Origin: Cetobacterium somerae ATCC BAA-474
GTDB taxonomy: Bacteria > Fusobacteriota > Fusobacteriia > Fusobacteriales > Fusobacteriaceae
Assembly (NCBI RefSeq): GCF_000479045.1
Contig: NZ_KI518081.1
Coordinates: forward strand, 1-35,732
Reading direction: 5' to 3'
Length of the DNA stretch: 35,732 nucleotides
The notes under the pieces were generated by a model. The model was not told the DNA's origin. It did no database searches and saw only the letters and a program-made list of their open reading frames with translations. Of the stretch, positions 11,247-21,399 are shown in pieces. Each line of letters starts with the position of its first letter. Positions within the stretch are counted from its first letter, which is position 1. The position numbers and the translations under genes are program-made.

Positions 11247-12209
11247 ATGATATTTAATAAACTAAGTACTTATGATAAACATAAAGTTTTTAAAAATATG
11301 ATTGGCCCTTATGCAGCTGTTCTTATTGCTCAATATTTTTCTTTAGAATATCAATACTCCGCTGCTACAATTTGTATCTTAAGTTTAGAAAGTACTCGAA
11401 AAGCTTCTTTTAGAAGTTCTTTTGAAAGAGTTCTTGCCGCTTCTTTTGGTTTAATTTTATCTGCTACTATCATTAAAATTTTTAAATTTAATCCTATTTC
11501 TTTAGTTATATTTACAGCTATTTTTATGCCTCTTTGTATACGATTTAACTTAATGCAGGGATTTTTCACCAACATTGTTCTAGCGACACATTTTCTATTA
11601 GATGAAAATGTATCTTTAATTTTTGTTCTTGATCAATATCTTCTTTTATTAGTTGGAGTTCTTTGTGCTATTATTTCAAACTTATATATGCCTAGCCAGA
11701 ACAATGAAATCATCTCCCAATTAGAAAAAATTGATTCTATTATGAAAGATATTATTTTTGACTTCTCTAAAGCTTTAAAATATAAAGCTGTTTCATTAAA
11801 ACAAGATGAACTCTTTGAAGAGCTAAAAATTAACCTAGATGATTGCAAACAATTAGTTGAAATGGAAAAGGATAATCGATTATTTTTTAAAAAAGTAGAT
11901 ATTTCTAAAAATTATTCATTAAAATTTTCAGAATATATCATTCTTTCAAAAATAAGAGAGTGTTTTGGTAAAATTTCTACTGATATCTCAATCACTTCTG
12001 AATTAGCTGTAATTTTAAGAGATTTAGCCACATCATCTTCAAATAATTATACTTACAATATTCTTTTAAGTAAAATAAAACGCTCAGAAGATAGATTTAA
12101 AAAAGAGATTGATGAGAATAGTTTAAATATTGAAAATAAAGCAATTTATTTCCTACTTATAGAAAATATTAAAGAACTTATTAAATTAAGAATAAAAAAT
12201 ATTTTTTAA
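11247..12209 (+). CDS. Aromatic acid exporter family protein (ArAE/FUSC-like, DUF939)
   Basis: This 320-aa protein has four to five closely spaced transmembrane segments in residues about 15-150 (including the ATICILSLESTRKASFRSSFERVLAASFG region typical of the FUSC-type fold). A soluble, helix-rich C-terminal domain of about 165 residues follows, matching the two-part layout of Gram-positive aromatic acid exporter family 1 members. It would export weak organic acids or help control ion balance; the substrate is unknown. Start: GGGAGG lies before the ATG. It precedes the decarboxylase island by 76 nt, with a hairpin between, so cotranscription is uncertain. Confidence 0.8.
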   Translation: MIFNKLSTYDKHKVFKNMIGPYAAVLIAQYFSLEYQYSAATICILSLESTRKASFRSSFERVLAASFGLILSATIIKIFKFNPISLVIFTAIFMPLCIRFNLMQGFFTNIVLATHFLLDENVSLIFVLDQYLLLLVGVLCAIISNLYMPSQNNEIISQLEKIDSIMKDIIFDFSKALKYKAVSLKQDELFEELKINLDDCKQLVEMEKDNRLFFKKVDISKNYSLKFSEYIILSKIRECFGKISTDISITSELAVILRDLATSSSNNYTYNILLSKIKRSEDRFKKEIDENSLNIENKAIYFLLIENIKELIKLRIKNIF

Positions 12210-12213
12210 AGGA

Positions 12214-12255
12214 AACTCACATTTTTTTTTTAACAATATCGTGAGTTAAAATTTT
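12214..12255 (+). terminator. Weak terminator or attenuator before the decarboxylase island
   Basis: A 7-bp stem AACTCAC / GTGAGTT (12214-12220 with 12241-12247) closes a 20-nt, T-rich loop and is followed by AAAA and seven Ts (12252-12258). The long loop and the A interruption make it a weak terminator. It may uncouple the exporter from the decarboxylase or act as an attenuator for it. Confidence 0.45.
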
Positions 12256-12285: not shown

Positions 12286-14541
12286 ATGAAGTCTGTTGAT
12301 TATTTAAATTGGTCCTTATTAGTTTTTCACGAGTTAGATTCAACTTATGAATCTTCTAAACAATTAGATATCCTTTTAGAATCTTTCACTACTTCTTTTG
12401 TTGACAATGAGACTGATTTTAAAAGAGTTTATATGTCTAATAAAACTCTTTCTGGAATTATTTTAAATTCCAATGAAAATTTAGAAGAATTAGTTAAATT
12501 TGTTAGAAAAACAAATCCAAAAATCCCAATTGTTGTGTTAACAGAAAACGGTTCTTCAAATATCCCATTACAAATTTTAAATTCAATAAATCTTGTAATA
12601 AATATTTTTGAAGATAGCATCTCTTTTTTAGCAGGTCAAATAGAATTAGAAATTGAACGATATCTTGAAGCTATCAAACCTGTCTTTTTCGGTAAATTAA
12701 TGGATTATACTCAAAAATTTAAGTATCCTTGGCATACGCCTGGTCATGCTGGTGGACTTATGTTTATGACTAATCCAATTGGAAAAATGATGTTTGACTT
12801 TTATGGAGAAAACACTCTAAGATCAGACCTTTCTATATCAGTTCCAGAATTAGGTTCTCTTTTAGATGATGAAGGTCCTGTTAAAGATGCTGAAAGTAAT
12901 TCAGCTAGAGTTTTCTCTGCTGATAAAACTTACTATATTTTAAACGGAACAAGTTCAGTTAATCAGGTTATTTGGAAAGGTAGAGTTACTAAAGATAACT
13001 TAGCTTTTGTTGATAGAAACTGTCACAAATCCCTAAATTACGGAATGGTTATAACAGAAGCTATCCCAATGTATATGATTCCTAGAAGAAATAGTTTAGG
13101 TATAATCGGTCCTGTTAAATTAAATGAATTTACAAAAGAGTATATTAATAAAATAATTGAGGATAATTCAAAATTAACTGATGAACAGAAAAAACAAAAG
13201 ATTAAAATGTCAGCATTAACAAACTCCACTTACGATGGTCTTTGTTATAACGTTAACAAAATAAAAGAAACTTTGAATAATAATGTTGAAAATCTACATT
13301 TTGATGAAGCTTGGTATGCTTATGCTAAGTTCCATCCTATATATAAAGATCACTATGCTATGACTGAATCTGATAACTTTATCGAACATCCACCAATTTT
13401 TGCGTCTCACTCTACACATAAGTTATTAGGAGCATTTTCCCAAGCTTCTATGCTTCATGTTAAAGATGGAACTAAAGATAAAGTTGATTTTGTAGTTTTC
13501 GATGAAGCATATTTAATGTATGGGTCAACATCTCCACAATATAGCATGATTGCTTCTTTAGATGTATCTACAGCTATGATGGATTTTTCTGGTAAAGAGT
13601 TGATGAATGAAACTATTTTAAATGCTATTCACTTTAGAAAAAGAATTGCTAAATTAAATAAAGAGTATGCTAGTTTTAATCAATGGTTTTTCTCTTTATG
13701 GCAACCAGAAAAAGTTTTATACAATGGAATTTTAACAAATTTTGAAGATGTTCCAGACAAGTATCTTCTAGAAAATCAAAGTTGTTGGACTTTAGATACA
13801 GATAACAATTGGCATGGATTTAATGATATCGAAAAAAATTATGTTATGCTAGATCCTATTAAACTAACACTAAAATGTCCAGGTTTAAAAGTAAATGGTG
13901 AATATGAAGATATTGGTATTCCTGCTTCTATTTTAAGTAACTATATCATCGACAGAGGAGTAGTTAATGAAAAAACAGACACATATTCACTTTTATTCCT
14001 TCACTCTATTGGAACTACTATAACAAAACAAGAAGCTCTTATCAAAGTTTTAATGGACTTTAAAAAGGATTTTGATAAAAATACTCCTCTTGTTGAAATA
14101 TTCCCAGATTTAGTTAATTCTTATCCTGAAAAATACTCTAACAAAGGATTAAAAGATCATTGCTTAGATATGCATAAATATATTATAGAATCAAAACTTC
14201 TAGAACTTATGGATAAAGCATTTCAGATTATCCCTAAACAAGAGCTAACACCTGCTGAAGCTTCTAGAGAGGTATTTAGAGGAAACATTGAGCATGTTCC
14301 TGTTAAAGATTGTATGAACAGAGTTGCTGGAGTTATTGTGGTTCCATATCCACCAGGAATTCCAGTTTTAATGGGTGGAGAAAAAATTGATGAAAACTCA
14401 AAATCTATTTTAGATTTTCTTTTAGCAAGAGAGGAGTTTGAAAGAGTTTTCCCTGGATATTTCAGTGATATCCATGGAGTTGAAGCGTTTATTGACAATG
14501 ATGGAGTTAGAAGATTCCATACTATGGTTATAAAAAATTAA
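12286..14541 (+). CDS. PLP-dependent Orn/Lys/Arg decarboxylase, AdiA-like
   Basis: This 751-aa enzyme is a class III PLP decarboxylase of the bacterial acid-induced type. Residues about 1-130 form the response-regulator-like wing domain. The core has HTPGHAGG (150-157), SVPELGSLLDDEGPV, a GTSSVNQ phosphate-binding turn, HFDEAWYAYAKF (338-349, Asp340 binding the PLP nitrogen) and SHSTHKLLGAFSQAS, with the Schiff-base Lys379. Length (AdiA is about 755) and the HFDEAWYxYA motif favour arginine, whereas lysine decarboxylases have HFDSAW. Lysine or ornithine cannot be excluded. It starts a tight five-gene run, with an AAGGAGG site. It consumes a proton and releases CO2 and a polyamine such as agmatine. 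Confidence 0.88.
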   Translation: MKSVDYLNWSLLVFHELDSTYESSKQLDILLESFTTSFVDNETDFKRVYMSNKTLSGIILNSNENLEELVKFVRKTNPKIPIVVLTENGSSNIPLQILNSINLVINIFEDSISFLAGQIELEIERYLEAIKPVFFGKLMDYTQKFKYPWHTPGHAGGLMFMTNPIGKMMFDFYGENTLRSDLSISVPELGSLLDDEGPVKDAESNSARVFSADKTYYILNGTSSVNQVIWKGRVTKDNLAFVDRNCHKSLNYGMVITEAIPMYMIPRRNSLGIIGPVKLNEFTKEYINKIIEDNSKLTDEQKKQKIKMSALTNSTYDGLCYNVNKIKETLNNNVENLHFDEAWYAYAKFHPIYKDHYAMTESDNFIEHPPIFASHSTHKLLGAFSQASMLHVKDGTKDKVDFVVFDEAYLMYGSTSPQYSMIASLDVSTAMMDFSGKELMNETILNAIHFRKRIAKLNKEYASFNQWFFSLWQPEKVLYNGILTNFEDVPDKYLLENQSCWTLDTDNNWHGFNDIEKNYVMLDPIKLTLKCPGLKVNGEYEDIGIPASILSNYIIDRGVVNEKTDTYSLLFLHSIGTTITKQEALIKVLMDFKKDFDKNTPLVEIFPDLVNSYPEKYSNKGLKDHCLDMHKYIIESKLLELMDKAFQIIPKQELTPAEASREVFRGNIEHVPVKDCMNRVAGVIVVPYPPGIPVLMGGEKIDENSKSILDFLLAREEFERVFPGYFSDIHGVEAFIDNDGVRRFHTMVIKN

Positions 14542-14560
14542 TTTTTAAGGAGGGTTTAAA

Positions 14561-16024
14561 ATGGCTGACGATAACAAAAAACTTGGTTTAGTAGCTCTTA
14601 CTGCCGTTGTTATTAGTGCTATGATTGGTGGTGGTGTATTTAACTTACCTCAAAACATGGCTCAATCTGCTGGGGCTGGAGCTATTACTATTGCGTGGGT
14701 TATAACTGGTGTGGGGATGTGGTTTGTTGCTAATACATTTAGAATTTTAGCTGAAGCTAGACCTGATGCTACAACTGGAATCTATGCCTACGGTGAACTT
14801 GGATTTGGAAACTTTACTGGTTTCCTTATGGCTTGGGGTTATTGGATTTGTAACTGTTTCGCAAATATTGGCTATGCAGTTTTATTAATGGATTCCCTAA
14901 ACTATTTCTTCCCTGGATATTTTACTGGTGGAAATAATTTCAACTCAGTAATTGGTGGTTCTTTAGTTATTTGGATTATCTACTTTATCGTTTTAGCTGG
15001 AGTTAAGGGTGCTACTTCATTAAACACTATTGGTACTATTGGTAAATTGGTTCCAATTGTATTATTCCTACTTATTACAGCTTTCTTCTTTAAGGTTGGA
15101 TTCTTCTTCACTAACTTCTGGGGTACAGAAACTATAACAACTCTTTCTGATAAACCTCTTGGTAGTCTTTTAAGTCAAGTTAAAGGTACAATGCTTGTAA
15201 CTTTATGGGTATTTATTGGAATTGAAGGAGCTGTTGTTGTATCTGACAGAGCAAAAGATCAAGCTGAAGTTGGTAAAGCAACTCTTTTAGGATTCTTAGG
15301 ATGTTTAATTCTTTATGTTTTATTATCTTTACTTCCACTTGGACATTATTCTCAAGGTCAACTTTCAAATATGGCAGCTCCTTCAACTGCAGCTGTTTTA
15401 GGTGGAATTGTTGGTCAATGGGGAGATTGGTTAATGAATATTGGAGTTATGATAGCTATATTAAGTTCTTGGCTTGTTTGGACTATTATGCTTGCTGAGT
15501 TACCATTTGCTGCAGCTAAAGGAAAAACATTCCCAAAAGCATTTGCTAAAGTAAATAAAAATGATTCTCCATCATTCTCTTTACTTATTTCTAGTATTAT
15601 TATGCAAGTTACTATGATTGTCGTTTATTTCTCTAATAACGCATGGAATTTAATGTTAAGTATTACAGGAGTAATGGTTTTACCTTGTTATATTGTTTGT
15701 ACTGCTTATCTATGGAAAATTGCAGCTAAAAATGATAATTATCCAACTAATATATTTGCTAGCAGAAAAAATGCTGAAATTACAGGATTATTAGGAACTA
15801 TTTATGGTTTATGGCTTGTTTACGCAGCCGGATTAAACTACATGCTTTTAGCAGCAGTTATATATGCTATTGGTATTCCATTCTTCATGAAAGCTAGAAA
15901 AGAATTTGACCCTAGTAACCCTGAATTCAATAAAGAAGAAAGAATTTTCTCTATTGTTTTATTCATATTAGGAATTTTAGGACTGATATATTTAATCATG
16001 AACTATAAAGCTTTATTAGGTTAA
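14561..16024 (+). CDS. Basic amino acid/polyamine antiporter (APC superfamily, ArcD-like)
   Basis: A 487-aa, about 12-helix membrane exchanger. The N-terminal GGGVFNLPQNMAQSAGAG motif in TM1, the TGIYAYGELGFGNFTGF loop and AWGYWICN in TM3 are those of the arginine/ornithine-type (ArcD, TIGR00905-like) antiporters; the family includes lysine and histidine exchangers. It follows the AdiA-like gene by 19 nt with a good AAGGAGG site, so it is the likely partner swapping the external amino acid for the internal polyamine. It is a clear paralogue of the last gene of the island. Confidence 0.88.
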   Translation: MADDNKKLGLVALTAVVISAMIGGGVFNLPQNMAQSAGAGAITIAWVITGVGMWFVANTFRILAEARPDATTGIYAYGELGFGNFTGFLMAWGYWICNCFANIGYAVLLMDSLNYFFPGYFTGGNNFNSVIGGSLVIWIIYFIVLAGVKGATSLNTIGTIGKLVPIVLFLLITAFFFKVGFFFTNFWGTETITTLSDKPLGSLLSQVKGTMLVTLWVFIGIEGAVVVSDRAKDQAEVGKATLLGFLGCLILYVLLSLLPLGHYSQGQLSNMAAPSTAAVLGGIVGQWGDWLMNIGVMIAILSSWLVWTIMLAELPFAAAKGKTFPKAFAKVNKNDSPSFSLLISSIIMQVTMIVVYFSNNAWNLMLSITGVMVLPCYIVCTAYLWKIAAKNDNYPTNIFASRKNAEITGLLGTIYGLWLVYAAGLNYMLLAAVIYAIGIPFFMKARKEFDPSNPEFNKEERIFSIVLFILGILGLIYLIMNYKALLG

Positions 16025-16033
16025 TGAAAAGAG

Positions 16034-16966
16034 ATGAGTATGATGAATAGTCAAATAACAAGTAAAGTTCTAATGATTAAACCTGTTAAGTTTTATTACA
16101 ATGCACAAACTGCAGTTAATAATGCTTATCAAAAAAATCTTGAAGAAAATCCAGAACTTGTAGAAAAAAAAGCATTAGACGAGTTCGATGCTCTTGTTAA
16201 TAAAATGAAAAGTGTTGAAATTGAAGTGGACGTTATTCAAGATACGTCCACTCCATATACACCTGATAGTATTTTTCCAAATAACTGGTTTAGTTCTCAC
16301 AAAAATAATACTCTTATTATTTATCCTATGTTTGCTGAAAACAGACGACTAGAACGAACTAAATTTCTTCCAAATTTAAAAAAACTTTTTTTAAACGAAA
16401 CTATAAATATTATAGATTTAACATCTTTTGAAAAAGAAAATAAATTTTTGGAAGGAACAGGAGCTTTAGTTTTAGATAGAATCAATAAAATTGCTTATTG
16501 TTCTCTCTCTCCTAGAGCAAATGAAGATGTTTTAGATGAATTTTGCAAACTAACTAACTATAAATCATTAAAGTTTCACTCTGCTCAAAATTTCAATAAT
16601 ATCTCTACTCCTATTTATCACACTAATGTTATGATGGGAGTCACTGAAAATTTTGTTGTAGTTTGTCTAGAATCTATTTCTAATTTAAAAGAAAGGGATG
16701 CTTTAAAAAACTCTATTTTAAATTCGAAAAAAGAGATTATTGATATCTCTCTTAATCAAGTTTTAAAGTTTTGTGGGAATGTTTTAGAGTTAAAGAATTC
16801 TCATGGAAAACGTTATACACTTATGTCTAAATCAGCTTTTGAAGGCTTTACAAAAGAACAAATCGATGTAATTAAAAAAAGTTCTGAAATTATTTATTCA
16901 GATATTTCTACCATTGAAACTTATGGTGGTGGCTCTGTAAGATGTATGATTGCTGAACTTTTTTAA
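16034..16966 (+). CDS. ctlX: CtlX-like amidinohydrolase (arginine deiminase/amidinotransferase superfamily)
   Basis: A soluble enzyme of up to 310 aa with the guanidino-group-modifying fold. It shows FPNNWFSSH and IIYPMFAENRRLER, the LEGTGALV strand, a conserved histidine in HTNVMMGV and the catalytic Cys304 in GGGSVRCM near the C-terminus. These match the citrulline-utilisation hydrolase (CtlX) group, which converts citrulline toward ornithine, but superfamily members also act on arginine-like compounds. The ribosome site is weak and lies around AAAAGAG; ATGs at 16034, 16040 and 16043 are all possible. It begins 9 nt after the antiporter stop, so translational coupling is likely. It may feed ornithine to the upstream decarboxylase or be a separate arginine/citrulline step. 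Confidence 0.8.
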   Translation: MSMMNSQITSKVLMIKPVKFYYNAQTAVNNAYQKNLEENPELVEKKALDEFDALVNKMKSVEIEVDVIQDTSTPYTPDSIFPNNWFSSHKNNTLIIYPMFAENRRLERTKFLPNLKKLFLNETINIIDLTSFEKENKFLEGTGALVLDRINKIAYCSLSPRANEDVLDEFCKLTNYKSLKFHSAQNFNNISTPIYHTNVMMGVTENFVVVCLESISNLKERDALKNSILNSKKEIIDISLNQVLKFCGNVLELKNSHGKRYTLMSKSAFEGFTKEQIDVIKKSSEIIYSDISTIETYGGGSVRCMIAELF

Positions 16967-16984
16967 AATAAAGGAGGAACAAAA

Positions 16985-17863
16985 ATGAAAATTGACAAAA
17001 CTGCGATTAGCTTTTATGAGGATTATTGTGATGGATATGGAGCTCCTGGTTCAACTGGAAACGGATACGTTTCAGTTTTAAAAGTTTCTGTAGGAACAGT
17101 TCCTAAAACTGATGATATTTTAATAGATGGTATTGTAGCTTATGATAGAGCTGAGGTTAATGATGCTTATGTTGGACAAATCAATATGTTAACTGCTTCA
17201 TCTTTTTGTGGTCTTGCTGGGCAAGTTTGGGGATACGACTTAGCTAAACATGATTCAATTGCTGAAGATTCTAATCCAACAGTTTTAGAAGTACCTCAAT
17301 TTGACGGTTCAATTTTAAAAGTTTATGATGCTAAACCTCTTTTAGAAGCTGGTGTTGAACTTTTTGGAACTGAATCTAAAAGAAGATTTACTCCACTTCC
17401 TGGATCACATATGATTTGTGCTAATAAAGGCGTTACTGCATATAGACCTACAGAAAATAGAGAGTTTAAAGAAAATGAAGGATATGGTGTTTGGTGTTTC
17501 ATCGCAATCTCAATAGCAAAAGATAGAGATAAAGATGCCAGTCTATTTATAGAAGATGCTGGAATCTGGACTGAAAATGATAATCCAGAAGATTTAAAAA
17601 AATTCTTAGAAGATCATAGAAAAGCTATTGTTTGGTCTGTTGTTGAGTGTGGAAAAGATTCTCATGTTGCATATGATAGAACTTATGTGGGATTTGCTTA
17701 TACTATCATGAAACCAGGAGAAATTGGAACATCTTTAACTTGTGGACCATATGTTACTTTAGCTAGAAAAGCCGTTCCTGAAAAAGGATTTGGAGAGTTA
17801 AACAACCTAACTCTTTCTCAATGGCTAGATGTTCAAGGATTAGAACCTATTGTAAAAAAATAG
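16985..17863 (+). CDS. hdcA: Pyruvoyl-dependent histidine decarboxylase proenzyme
   Basis: This 292-aa proenzyme is closely similar in layout to HdcA of lactic acid bacteria. It is predicted to cleave itself between Ser72 and Ser73 in TASSF, giving a beta chain and an alpha chain with an N-terminal pyruvoyl group made from Ser73. Tyr53-Asp54 in AYDRAE correspond to Tyr62 and Asp63 of the Lactobacillus 30a enzyme. Phe188 and Glu190 in LFIEDAG correspond to Phe195 and Glu197. YDAKPL, CANKGVTA, GYGVW and IGFAYT-like segments are also kept. It turns histidine into histamine plus CO2 and needs no PLP. AAAGGAGG precedes the ATG. No hdcB or hisS gene accompanies it. All visible active-site residues are intact. 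Confidence 0.95.
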   Translation: MKIDKTAISFYEDYCDGYGAPGSTGNGYVSVLKVSVGTVPKTDDILIDGIVAYDRAEVNDAYVGQINMLTASSFCGLAGQVWGYDLAKHDSIAEDSNPTVLEVPQFDGSILKVYDAKPLLEAGVELFGTESKRRFTPLPGSHMICANKGVTAYRPTENREFKENEGYGVWCFIAISIAKDRDKDASLFIEDAGIWTENDNPEDLKKFLEDHRKAIVWSVVECGKDSHVAYDRTYVGFAYTIMKPGEIGTSLTCGPYVTLARKAVPEKGFGELNNLTLSQWLDVQGLEPIVKK

Positions 17864-17893
17864 TTCTAAATATTTAAGGAGGTTTTGGCTATT

Positions 17894-19279
17894 ATGGAAA
17901 AAAAGAGCTCTTTAGGAATTTTTACATTATCAACAATTGTTGTTGGTTCTATGATTGGTGGAGGAATATTTAATATGCCTAAAAATATTGCTCAATCGTC
18001 ATCGGCTGGAGCTGCCATGATTGGATGGTTAATCTCTGGTATTGGGGTTCTTTTTTTAGCCAAAACCTTTCAAATCTTAGCTAGTGAAACTCCTGATGTT
18101 ACAGATGGAATTTATAAATATGCCAAAGAGGGATTTGGAACTTTTTCAGGTTTTCATTCTGCCTGGGGATATTGGATTTCAAACGTTATAAGTAATGCCA
18201 GCTACCCTGTTCTTTTAGTTCAAACTTTAAATTATTTTTTTCCTAGTATTGGACCTATCAATAGTTTTAACGGTATTATTTTAGGAAGTGTTTTAATTTG
18301 GATTGTTATTGGAACTGCCCTTGCTGGAGATGTTGGATTAAAATTTATAAATGTCTTAGCTACAATAGGTAAAGTTGTAGCTATTTTTTTAGGTGTTATT
18401 ATATTGTATATTGGATTCACTAGACAGATATTTTTTAAAGATTTTTGGGGTGGTTCATTTAATAACGCATCTATCTTTTCTCAAGTTAAAGGTTGCATGC
18501 TACAAACGTTGTGGGCTTTTATTGGAATAGAAGGTGCTGTTGTTATTTCTGACAAAGCTTCAGATATTAAACTAGTTGGAAGAGCCACTATGATTGGATA
18601 TTTCATATCTTTATTTTTATATGTTTTTATTGTACTTTTAAGTTATGGTGTTTTAAGTGATGCTGAACTAGCTGCACTTAAAGACCCTGCCCTATCTTAT
18701 ATTATTGAAGCTGTTATTGGTCCTGTTGGAGCTACTTTAGTTAATGTAGCTGTTTTAATATCTGTTGGAGGAGCTTGGCTTAGCTGGACTTTTTTAACAG
18801 CAGAAATACCATATAACGTAGCTTTGGATGGACTTTTTCCTAATTTTTTTAAAAAAGTAAATAAAAATGATGCTTGTTCTGGGGCTCTTTTTACAAATGG
18901 TATCTTAAAGCAGATTGTATTTTTTCTTTCATTATCTGCTCAAAATGCATATCTTGTTATTACTAACTCTGCATCATGTATGATTCTTATTCCTTATATT
19001 TTTTCATCGTTATTTTTAATGAAAATTGCAATTAAACATGCTCATAAAAAATGTTTTTATTGGGGAATAGGTGGAGTTATTTATGGTGCTTGGATGATTT
19101 ATTCATCTGGATTAAGTTATGTTTTCCAATCTTTAACTATTTATTCTTTGGGAACTCTTTATTTTTTATTTGATACCAAAAGAAAAACTGGATATTTTTT
19201 TCAAAATATTAAGGAAAAGCTCATATCTTTTATAATTCTAACTTTAGGGTTTATTTCATTTTACAGTATAATAACTTAA
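17894..19279 (+). CDS. APC-family antiporter, probably histidine/histamine exchanger
   Basis: A 461-aa, about 12-helix exchanger, paralogous to the ArcD-like gene of the same island (GGGIFNMPKNIAQSSSAG in TM1, GIYKYAKEGFGTFSGF, AWGYWISN). It starts about 30 nt after hdcA. An in-frame TTG at 17885 lies only 2 nt past AAGGAGG, too close to be used, so I chose the ATG at 17894 (11-nt spacing). By position it is the histidine-in/histamine-out partner of HdcA (HdcP/HdcC role), but the sequence alone does not prove the substrate; arginine or ornithine exchange remains possible. Confidence 0.82.
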   Translation: MEKKSSLGIFTLSTIVVGSMIGGGIFNMPKNIAQSSSAGAAMIGWLISGIGVLFLAKTFQILASETPDVTDGIYKYAKEGFGTFSGFHSAWGYWISNVISNASYPVLLVQTLNYFFPSIGPINSFNGIILGSVLIWIVIGTALAGDVGLKFINVLATIGKVVAIFLGVIILYIGFTRQIFFKDFWGGSFNNASIFSQVKGCMLQTLWAFIGIEGAVVISDKASDIKLVGRATMIGYFISLFLYVFIVLLSYGVLSDAELAALKDPALSYIIEAVIGPVGATLVNVAVLISVGGAWLSWTFLTAEIPYNVALDGLFPNFFKKVNKNDACSGALFTNGILKQIVFFLSLSAQNAYLVITNSASCMILIPYIFSSLFLMKIAIKHAHKKCFYWGIGGVIYGAWMIYSSGLSYVFQSLTIYSLGTLYFLFDTKRKTGYFFQNIKEKLISFIILTLGFISFYSIIT

Positions 19280-19290
19280 TTTAAAATAAT

Positions 19291-19317
19291 AAAGGGAACA
19301 AAATATTTTGCTCCCTT
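19291..19317. terminator. Bidirectional terminator after the decarboxylase island
   Basis: The arms AAAGGGA and TCCCTTT plus an inner CAAAA/TTTTG, with one mismatch, form a long hairpin centred near 19304. On the minus strand it is followed by a T-rich run and ends the HD-GYP gene; on the plus strand it ends the antiporter transcript. Confidence 0.7.
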
Positions 19318-19320
19318 TTG

Positions 19321-21399
19321 CTATATATTTGAATTGAATAATCTTTCAAATTTGAATTCATTTTCTAAAAATATTTTTACTATATTTGGATCAAAACTTT
19401 TTCCACTTTCATTTTTTATTATCTCTATCGCTTTTTCATGAGTAAATCCATCTTTATAAACTCTCTTTTGTCTCAGTGCATCATAAACATCTACAACTGA
19501 TACAATTCTAGCTTCTAGTGGTATTTCTAATCCCTTTAAGCCACAAGGATAACCACTTCCATCCCATTTTTCATGATGATATCTTGCTATATTTTCAGCC
19601 ATTATACTTACACCTGACTTTTTTATAATTTCATAACCTATCTCTGGATGTTCTTTTATTACTTTAAACTCTTCTTCTGTTAATTTTCCTGGTTTTTTAA
19701 GTATACTTCTATCTATACCTATTTTTCCAACATCATGAAGTGAAGCAACTCTTCCTATCTCTTCATAGAACTTTTTACTACATCCAAGTTTATTAGCTAA
19801 AAGTTCTGAATATAAATTTAACCTTTTTATATGATTGCCTGTTTCAAGATCGTTAAATTGATTTACTGCCTCTAAAGACGACACTAAAGATAACATTAAA
19901 TCCTCATATTTTCTTTTCTCTACTAAGTTTTTTCTTCCTTTATATAATAAAATAAAACTGATTAACAAAATTCCCATTGAAAATATAAGAATTTTTTTAG
20001 ATTTATCTGTTTCATAACTATTTTTTTCTAAATAAATATTTTTACTCATATTTTCATTTAAAAAACTAGCTGAAATATCTTTTAAAGCTTCATAAAGTTC
20101 TTTTTGCTCACTATTTACAACCATAGATACATCATATTTTTTATCTAAAATACCTGCAATTTTTATCTCTTTATCATAGCCAGTGTTATATAGTTTGTTA
20201 ATCAATGTTTTATAATCACCAATACTATAATCTGCCTCTTTTCTTTTTACTTTCTCTATTGTTTCATCCATATCTTTAGCATAAATAAAGTTTTCTTCTT
20301 TTAGAAACTTCCTTAAATAATCCATATAATATGAATTCTCTACAACAGCAAATCTCTTCTTTCTTGCTTCTACCAAATTATTTATAAACCCATCCTCTTT
20401 TCTATTAAAAATAACAGGAGTTAATGTGTAATATGGATTTGTATAATTTTCATTATCTCTTATACTACTCTCTATTGTTGAGGCAATTGTTATATCATTA
20501 CTTTTCCAATCCTCCTCTTTTGAATAAAAAATTTTTCTTACTTGAATACCTAAAATTTCTCCTACATCTTTTAAATACTCAATTGCTAAACCTTTTTCTT
20601 CACCATCTTCTATATAATAAAGAGGATAATTAGTTTTTTCTGTTGGAAAAACCACACTTATTGATTTATCTTTTAAATTCGTATATTTATCTCCAAATTT
20701 ATCTTTATAATACTCTCTTCTAGAGTCACTTATCATATTTTTTAATGTTTCTGGTGAAATCTCTTCAAAATATCTCTTTAAATTTTTATAGAGCTTTTTT
20801 TCACTTTTTGGAACTGCTAGCGTTGTTACCATGATTGGAATTCTGCTTAACTCTATTTTACTTAAATTATCCTTAAATCCATATTGATTATCCGCTACAA
20901 ATCCATCAACTTCACCATCTTTGAGCATTTGTAAACCTTTTTCTCGAGTTTCTATATCTATTATTTCACTATGCAAAAAATCATATTTTTCTAAAAATTC
21001 TCTATCTAAGTATGTTCCTTTAATAACTCCAACTCTTTTTTTATAAAAATTTGTAATATCTATAAAGTTATTATTTAAAAAATACATATTTGCTTTTAAA
21101 TAAAAAAATGTGGGAATAAAGTAATACTTTTCTCTTCTTTCTTCATTTTCTATTAAATCCATTATTAAAATATTTTTACCTTTTTCCATATCTAAGATCA
21201 GATTTGTATCTAATTCTTTTAAATTTAAGTTTATTTTCTTTTTTTTATTAATGTCCTCAAATATTTTCGGATATAATCCTTTATACTGATTTTTTTCTTT
21301 ATAGAAGAAAAAACTATTTTCATTTTCTAATAAAACTACATGCTCTTTTCCCATTAAAGTTGTACATAATAAAAAAGAAAAGAGTAGAAATTTTAGCAT
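19321..21399 (-). CDS. Membrane sensor with two solute-binding domains and an HD-GYP phosphodiesterase
   Basis: A 692-aa protein. A signal sequence (1-17) precedes two periplasmic bacterial extracellular solute-binding family 3 domains (about 19-235 and 245-455). One transmembrane helix (about 469-487) and a cytoplasmic HD-GYP domain (about 505-685) follow. The HD-GYP residues are present: H555-D556 in SLHDVGKIG, H584, H608-H609 and DGSGYP (613-618). The domain should break down cyclic di-GMP when an amino acid or similar ligand binds outside. The ATG is preceded by GGGGGAG. It is a single-gene unit. No diguanylate cyclase (GGDEF) gene lies in the window, so the signal and substrate are inferred from domain families. 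Confidence 0.9.
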   Translation of the reverse strand: MLKFLLFSFLLCTTLMGKEHVVLLENENSFFFYKEKNQYKGLYPKIFEDINKKKKINLNLKELDTNLILDMEKGKNILIMDLIENEERREKYYFIPTFFYLKANMYFLNNNFIDITNFYKKRVGVIKGTYLDREFLEKYDFLHSEIIDIETREKGLQMLKDGEVDGFVADNQYGFKDNLSKIELSRIPIMVTTLAVPKSEKKLYKNLKRYFEEISPETLKNMISDSRREYYKDKFGDKYTNLKDKSISVVFPTEKTNYPLYYIEDGEEKGLAIEYLKDVGEILGIQVRKIFYSKEEDWKSNDITIASTIESSIRDNENYTNPYYTLTPVIFNRKEDGFINNLVEARKKRFAVVENSYYMDYLRKFLKEENFIYAKDMDETIEKVKRKEADYSIGDYKTLINKLYNTGYDKEIKIAGILDKKYDVSMVVNSEQKELYEALKDISASFLNENMSKNIYLEKNSYETDKSKKILIFSMGILLISFILLYKGRKNLVEKRKYEDLMLSLVSSLEAVNQFNDLETGNHIKRLNLYSELLANKLGCSKKFYEEIGRVASLHDVGKIGIDRSILKKPGKLTEEEFKVIKEHPEIGYEIIKKSGVSIMAENIARYHHEKWDGSGYPCGLKGLEIPLEARIVSVVDVYDALRQKRVYKDGFTHEKAIEIIKNESGKSFDPNIVKIFLENEFKFERLFNSNI

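Follow-up and report, generated by a model that had tools for sequence, protein, structure and literature searches.

A five-gene decarboxylation and exchange island of Cetobacterium somerae that combines a pyruvoyl histidine decarboxylase, a lysine-like PLP decarboxylase and a putative citrullinase

Five adjacent genes of Cetobacterium somerae ATCC BAA-474, here called OKR-A, T1, CtlX, HDC and T2, are best explained as a modular decarboxylation/exchange operon in which the histidine decarboxylase HDC and the PLP decarboxylase OKR-A would use the antiporter T1 in common, and to which a putative citrullinase (CtlX) and a second exchanger (T2) have been added. We consider this explanation fairly probable. 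It builds on gene identities, gene order, synteny, phylogeny and the absence of arginine deiminase (ArcA) and ornithine carbamoyltransferase (OTC) from the genome. The core of HDC, antiporter and PLP decarboxylase is already published; what is new is that the enzyme and the transporters are reassigned and that the operon also contains a citrulline enzyme and a second exchanger.

The genes lie in a window of 35,732 nucleotides, which is the whole stretch of DNA that was analysed. An ORF check confirmed the row of five plus-strand genes with gaps of 9–30 nt described in an initial annotation: all five reading frames are intact, their coordinates are unchanged (Table 1), and the successive gaps measure 19, 9, 18 and 30 nt. 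Gaps of this size suggest one transcript, and the five genes may be co-transcribed. The ORF listing begins T2 at TTG 17885, but the ribosome binding site AAGGAGG at 17876–17882 suits ATG 17894 better. The five proteins match their Pfam families far above chance (E-values of 6e-137, 1.5e-52, 2e-108, 4e-152 and 4e-47 in gene order) and pass the NCBI curated cut-offs of TIGR00541 (HDC), NF046062 (CtlX) and TIGR00905 (both T1 and T2). The earlier notion of a decarboxylation/exchange island in a fusobacterium holds up.

Table 1. Features of the island and its borders.
Feature	Coordinates	Strand	Description
ArAE-like gene	11247..12209	+	aromatic-acid-exporter-like; PF06081/PF11728; upstream of OKR-A
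OKR-A	12286..14541	+	751 aa; AAT-fold Orn/Lys/Arg PLP decarboxylase with wing domain, LdcA/lysine-like; PF03709+PF01276+PF03711
T1	14561..16024	+	487 aa; APC basic amino acid/polyamine antiporter, HdcC-like; TIGR00905
CtlX	16034..16966	+	310 aa; putative citrullinase (citrulline to ornithine + NH3/CO2); NF046062
HDC	16985..17863	+	292 aa; pyruvoyl histidine decarboxylase proenzyme; TIGR00541
T2	17894..19279	+	461 aa from ATG 17894; ArcD-like APC antiporter, clade apart from T1
Terminal hairpin	19291..19318	.	terminator scan; fold z = -2.74

A terminator scan returned two matches, compared with 3.1 expected in shuffled sequences. One follows T2; this hairpin marks the end of the operon and is probably a bidirectional terminator common to the operon and a convergent HD-GYP-type gene. 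The other, at 18357–18383 within the T2 coding sequence, was discarded as a chance-level match, in agreement with the initial statement that the run contains no internal terminator. The ArAE-like gene is a neighbour rather than a defined operon member, being separated from OKR-A by 76 nt and occurring in the sister species G007 without HDC. A hairpin at about 12215–12255 in this gap found no support as a conserved terminator or attenuator, as its left arm is not conserved in the sister species and its fold z is only -1.14. The window contains no Rfam match and no tRNA, and no flanking repeats or mobile element were found that explain insertion of the island.

HDC scores 478.5 bits against the equivalog model TIGR00541 (family PF02329; cut-off 346.65). 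It could be aligned to the HDC of Lactobacillus 30a (PDB 1hq6/1pya) through the self-cleavage site, which is predicted between residues 72 and 73 (17200/17201), after TAS in the sequence TASSF, with the Ser-Ser site present. The beta chain of 1hq6 stops at residue 72, and the alpha-chain match restarts at residue 74. Judging from its sequence, HDC probably produces histamine from histidine for export. In the hdcC/hdcA/hdcB clusters of Limosilactobacillus reuteri and Tetragenococcus halophilus, a pyruvoyl HDC 43–48% identical to the present one likewise adjoins an antiporter homologous to T1 (42–43% identity). In contrast, these clusters contain hdcB and hisS, neither of which lies beside HDC here, and PLP decarboxylase, CtlX and second exchanger are all missing from the stretches examined.

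The initial annotation had placed each decarboxylase beside an ArcD-like exchanger of its own. This pairing is misleading: T1, which is next to OKR-A, is an HDC-type antiporter by its adjacencies and its identity to HdcC. In a tree, T1 groups with known HdcC antiporters and not with T2. T2 is 30% identical to HdcC, against 42–43% for T1, and was accordingly rejected as the partner of HDC. T1 homologues adjoin HDC in three phyla (Bacillota, Actinomycetota and Fusobacteriota), with examples in Clostridium, Eggerthellaceae, Bifidobacterium, Fusobacterium and other Cetobacterium. T1 also retains the equivalents of AdiC W202, E208 and W293, and its best model is the histidine-histamine antiporter NF040512, with 545 bits against a cut-off of 725. 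On these comparisons, T1 is the predicted partner antiporter of HDC. We propose that it serves as a common histidine/histamine and lysine/cadaverine exchanger; the arrangement in G048, where a single T1 has OKR-A on one side and AdiA on the other, with HDC next in line, fits such common use of one antiporter.

OKR-A, whose PLP lysine is K379 in HSTHK (codon 13420–13422), most likely forms cadaverine from lysine and not agmatine from arginine. At 30 columns diagnostic for arginine or lysine enzymes, it is Lys-like in 16, Arg-like in none and neither in 14. It carries the lysine-type motif SISVPELG and lacks the AdiA hallmarks GIER, NCTYDG and PTRTTDFQ. It has no close relative among characterised enzymes. 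PDB entry 6q6i (751 aa), at only 45% identity, is labelled "biodegradative arginine decarboxylase" but is taken here to be the lysine decarboxylase LdcA of Pseudomonas aeruginosa; identity to Escherichia coli AdiA is 36%. LdcA, a member of the proteobacterial LAOdc family, has the same domain architecture and has the motifs PELGSLLD, NSTYDGLCYN, HFDEAWYAY and EKT in common with OKR-A. The two do not form a resolved joint clade, however: OKR-A falls outside the AdiA clade, in a polytomy that also includes LdcA, LdcI/LdcC and the AdiA side. Against the LdcC model it reaches 624.7 bits (cut-off 968). The lysine "NCHK tetrad" (PMC12484125) was rejected as a discriminator because DRNCHK is common to OKR-A, AdiA and lysine decarboxylases, and our literature search found no substrate-binding residues that separate lysine from arginine enzymes of this fold.

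It follows that the joint arginine/ornithine and histidine system initially envisaged does not fit the PLP enzyme. In that reading, which also corresponds to the published adiA/antiporter/hdcA interpretation, OKR-A would be an arginine decarboxylase making agmatine, with T1 common to both enzymes. The best NCBIfam model for OKR-A is indeed the AdiA equivalog ("arginine decarboxylase"), although at 663.7 bits against a cut-off of 1167; the label of 6q6i points the same way, and at the Fusobacterium-type loci L142–L145 it is a true AdiA that is linked to HDC. Here, however, the AdiA orthologue of the genome lies on a separate contig, C37, and has no neighbouring antiporter. Together with the low identity to AdiA, the position in the tree and the lack of any Arg-type column, this led us to reject OKR-A as AdiA, and we regard the arginine reading as unlikely.

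Nor do we give much credence to a citrulline-to-putrescine route, in which CtlX would make ornithine, OKR-A would be an ornithine decarboxylase (ODC), and HDC would be an independent activity driven from a common promoter. The joint presence of OKR-A and the CtlX-A clade in 7/7 genomes and the lack of OTC and ArcA would agree with it, as would G001, G007 and G011, which have a distant decarboxylase (32% identity) adjoining a 23%-identical APC transporter and no OKR-A. Yet OKR-A is only 30–31% identical to SpeF and has the lysine-type motif. In addition, contig C2 encodes a relative with 30% identity that resembles the ODC-arginase fusion described for Fusobacteriaceae (PMC8503589), and ODC activity may thus already be covered.

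CtlX is probably a citrullinase converting citrulline to ornithine. It scores 393.6 bits against the NF046062 equivalog (cut-off 334) and contains the motifs FPNN, HTN and GGGSVRC; no PDB relative was found by sequence. The asparagines of FPNN and HTN are those of putative citrullinases (Asp-to-Asn) and replace the guanidine-binding aspartates. By the cut-off and both asparagines, the protein matches the putative citrullinases of Price et al. 2022 (PMC9007349), whose examples adjoin ornithine cyclodeaminase or aruG, whereas the neighbours here are HDC and antiporters.

For T2, the ArcD-like label was upheld: its nearest model is the arginine-ornithine antiporter TIGR03810, with 419 bits against a cut-off of 591, and it barely exceeds the cut-off of TIGR00905. 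No arc neighbourhood surrounds it in this genome. Because T1 and T2 both score under their equivalog cut-offs, we infer their substrates rather than assign them. Lys, His, Arg and Orn are all high-affinity substrates of the characterised ArcD1, in line with the operon proposed below; the same protein translocates citrulline poorly (PMC5300872), which makes T2 doubtful as a citrulline importer. The island can do without T2, a gene that G004 lacks and that G003 carries unlinked.

In the modular operon that we favour, HDC would convert histidine to histamine and OKR-A most likely lysine to cadaverine, while T1 would bring the amino acid in and take the amine out. Each turnover would consume one cytoplasmic proton and move net positive charge outward, resulting in acid tolerance and proton-motive force. 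CtlX could provide a third reaction that consumes a proton and follows this design, turning imported neutral citrulline into ornithine (+1), NH3 and CO2, with T2 as a likely ornithine exchanger (citrulline/ornithine or ornithine/basic amino acid). The island might then run on three substrates as an operon for acid tolerance and energy, with T1 serving two chemically unrelated decarboxylases and with CtlX and T2 providing ornithine, either as charge to be exported or as a counter-substrate in histidine/lysine import; we put this extension forward tentatively, as a possibility that we would not yet bet on. If true, the citrullinase would be a functional analogue of a decarboxylase, and its use alongside decarboxylases would give the known acid-resistance repertoire a new reaction that consumes protons.

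Cetobacterium is common in freshwater fish gut communities, and an operon for histamine and probably cadaverine therefore matters for the physiology of the fish gut and for spoilage amines. Should OKR-A prove to be a lysine decarboxylase, the "adiA" labels of such cluster genes need correcting in Cetobacterium.

Two decarboxylases in one operon, although present here in the order first noted, are not new in kind. Mou et al. 2021 (PMC8465708) describe clusters of PLP decarboxylase, antiporter and pyruvoyl HDC in Fusobacteriota as three-component systems and list C. somerae among putative histamine producers. As in their adiA/antiporter/hdcA arginine/histidine system, a pyruvoyl HDC is clustered here with a PLP decarboxylase for basic amino acids and with one APC antiporter; unlike in that system, the PLP enzyme is LdcA/lysine-like, and the cluster also takes in a second exchanger and CtlX, of which the sections consulted make no mention. 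The same source cites the lysine/ornithine three-component system of Lactobacillus saerimneri 30a, which also has two decarboxylases and one antiporter, but for another substrate pair and with genes 24 kb apart rather than contiguous. The anatomy of such a system, two decarboxylases and one antiporter in adjacency, is found here, with T1 as the proposed shared antiporter. In the literature consulted, we found no description of CtlX and T2 in such an operon, nor of the co-occurrence and swapped slot described below.

A search of other genomes for the same gene order, as the initial annotation had suggested, found all five genes in identical order in two further species (G008 and G010) and four of them, without T2, in G004. 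Of 61 Fusobacteriaceae genomes, exactly 7 contain OKR-A, the CtlX-A clade and HDC together; they span three genera and are all the holders of OKR-A. In G002, G003 and G048 the trio is present though partly unlinked. The adjacencies CtlX-HDC and OKR-A-T1 recur. A coincidental gathering of niche-specific amino-acid genes in a tolerant insertion slot, with no joint role, would suit a slot that is empty or differently filled in sister species and a T2 that comes and goes, but these recurrent adjacencies, the trio kept even when partly unlinked and the short gaps that suggest a single transcript make it quite improbable. The operon is probably modular and horizontally assembled. DctA and the HD-GYP-type gene before gapA border its slot, which holds nothing in the sister species G005, while in G007 the place before gapA is taken by an unrelated glutamate-decarboxylase island; the three states (empty, glutamate-decarboxylase island and OKR-A-HDC island) form a natural series for studying system swaps.

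The five genes that the initial annotation joined into an arginine/ornithine and histidine decarboxylation/exchange operon lie at the coordinates it gave, and all are intact. The intergenic gaps are 19, 9, 18, and 30 nt, the last assuming that T2 starts at ATG 17894, which is preceded by the RBS AAGGAGG. As had been claimed, no significant internal terminator was detected, the only one found being the hairpin at the operon end. Domain and family searches identify OKR-A as an Orn/Lys/Arg-type PLP decarboxylase with a wing domain, T1 and T2 as AA_permease_2 antiporters, CtlX as DDAH-like, and HDC as a pyruvoyl-type histidine decarboxylase. Equivalog cut-offs are exceeded by HDC (TIGR00541) and CtlX (NF046062); T1 and T2 meet only that of TIGR00905, and OKR-A reaches that of none of the specific family models. 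The alignment of HDC to the solved Lactobacillus 30a enzyme spans the Ser-Ser cleavage point.

Features of the island and its downstream border
Feature	Position	Strand	Remark
OKR-A	12286-14541	+	
T1	14561-16024	+	
CtlX	16034-16966	+	
HDC	16985-17863	+	
T2	17894-19279	+	
Hairpin, operon end	19291-19318	common to convergent gene	terminator scan and fold
SBP_bac_3 domain fused to HD-GYP-type domain	19321-21399	-	adjoins gapA even without island

The island is real and largely ordinary in kind, with assignments corrected and some detail new. Its core is already known, since Mou et al. 2021 (PMC8465708) describe PLP-decarboxylase/antiporter/pyruvoyl-HDC clusters in Fusobacteriota and list Cetobacterium somerae among putative histamine producers. 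In bacterium BMS3Abin01 (L036:5334-10038), an OKR decarboxylase 49% identical to OKR-A, an antiporter, and HDC are likewise adjacent; unlike in the window, however, the antiporter is GadC-like and unrelated.

Arginine, the substrate initially assigned to OKR-A, is also the label given by the best NCBIfam model and by the PDB title of the nearest structure, 6q6i, but tree placement speaks against arginine and diagnostic columns favour lysine. We take 6q6i to be the lysine decarboxylase LdcA of P. aeruginosa; PMC7806604 names LdcA among the lysine enzymes whose structures have been solved. In trees, true AdiA arginine decarboxylases, including one from the same genome, form a single clade (59–69% identical to AdiA/Adc), outside which OKR-A falls, with no resolved grouping with LdcA. 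At 30 columns where Arg and Lys enzymes have fixed different residues, OKR-A is Lys-like at 16, Arg-like at 0, and neither at 14, although part of these may represent ancestral states rather than specificity residues, because SpeF has several of them. Judged from its sequence, OKR-A most likely acts on lysine, with fair confidence.

The proposed pairing of each decarboxylase with its adjacent exchanger proved to be crossed: T1, beside OKR-A, is HDC-type by neighbourhood and identity. T1 homologues lie immediately beside HDC in Clostridium, [Eubacterium] tenue, Eggerthellaceae, Bifidobacterium, Atopobiaceae, and Fusobacteriaceae, and T1 shares 42–43% identity with annotated HdcC (L. reuteri, T. 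halophilus) and 48% with the antiporter linked to HDC in S. capitis, compared with 30–31% for T2, which forms an ArcD-like group of its own. Both retain the AdiC-equivalent W202, E208, and W293. Antiporters adjoining AdiA alone, and others adjoining both AdiA and HDC, also fall in the T1 clade, a spread that suggests broad or readily switched specificity. The AdiA gene of the same genome, on another contig, C37 (L148:7748-10081), lies downstream of recJ and differs in context from those of related species (G005, G007, G009); since no antiporter adjoins it, T1 may serve this enzyme too.

CtlX retains FPNN and HTN, asparagine substitutions that Price et al. (PMC9007349) tie to citrulline and not to guanidino substrates. 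Because neither an arginine deiminase nor an OTC match over cut-off was found in the genome (the only match, of 151 bits, probably represents aspartate carbamoyltransferase), the putative citrullinase CtlX is the evident route for citrulline, which would necessarily come from outside. OKR-A and a monophyletic CtlX clade (support 100/99) have an identical distribution, confined to seven genomes in three genera, and all seven have HDC, which completes the trio; G001 and G046, congeners of two of them (G002 and G048), have a different CtlX. The co-occurrence of OKR-A with this CtlX clade (Fisher p = 2e-9) is overstated by this value, as the genomes are related. In G026 (L098, L100), CtlX is broken into two reading frames that overlap, and is probably a pseudogene with a frameshift; in G048 (L175:4703-6636), a carbamate kinase gene lies tail to tail with a trio-type CtlX.

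From the observed gene identities, order, synteny, and phylogeny we infer exchange by T1 and proton-consuming roles. T1 would exchange histidine/histamine and lysine/cadaverine, with one cytoplasmic proton consumed and net charge exported per turnover, and citrulline hydrolysis would use up protons and yield exportable ornithine. The weakest link is the role of T2. L. lactis ArcD1 has good affinity for Arg, Orn, Lys, and His but is a poor transporter of citrulline (PMC5300872); T2 might therefore bring in histidine or lysine, rather than citrulline, against CtlX-derived ornithine.

The chromosomal slot appears to exchange decarboxylation modules, since in G005 it is empty, with DctA and the SBP/HD-GYP-type gene directly adjacent (174 bp apart), and in the sister species G007 (L196:869-5934) the position before gapA, adjoining the SBP-HD gene, holds a response regulator, a sensor kinase, a glutamate decarboxylase whose 617 bits exceed the cut-off of 380, and an antiporter. 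The fusion protein itself has a possible role in amino-acid-sensing signalling. No repeats or mobile genes were found at the island boundaries. In the literature consulted, we found no description of the enzyme in Cetobacterium as LdcA-like, of the antiporter pairing as crossed, or of an operon that includes CtlX and T2, and none of the co-occurring trio or the exchangeable slot.

HDC occurs in 14 of 61 Fusobacteriaceae genomes. The neighbourhood search suggested initially recovered the complete five-gene order in three species (the window, G008, G010), and public contigs labelled Cetobacterium (L015) carry the same island, which places the window in this genus. It lacks T2 in G004 and consists of T1-HDC alone in G012; G003 has T1-CtlX-HDC at the island site and OKR-A-T1 at another place, and G002 keeps CtlX-HDC together, with OKR-A and T1 elsewhere. 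A single run in G048 (L147:8144-15117) comprises OKR-A, T1, AdiA, and HDC, that is, three decarboxylase genes and one antiporter gene. In four genomes (G024-G027), which would fit the group named Fusobacterium ulcerans/varium by Mou et al., a divergent AdiA adjoins T1-HDC. Among the three species with the complete order, the window's HDC protein is 99.7–100% identical to those of G010 and G008, and the flanking island genes except T1 are 91–95% identical; fourfold-site divergence of HDC (0.11–0.15) equals or lies slightly under the lowest among neighbouring genes, so its identity mostly reflects purifying selection.
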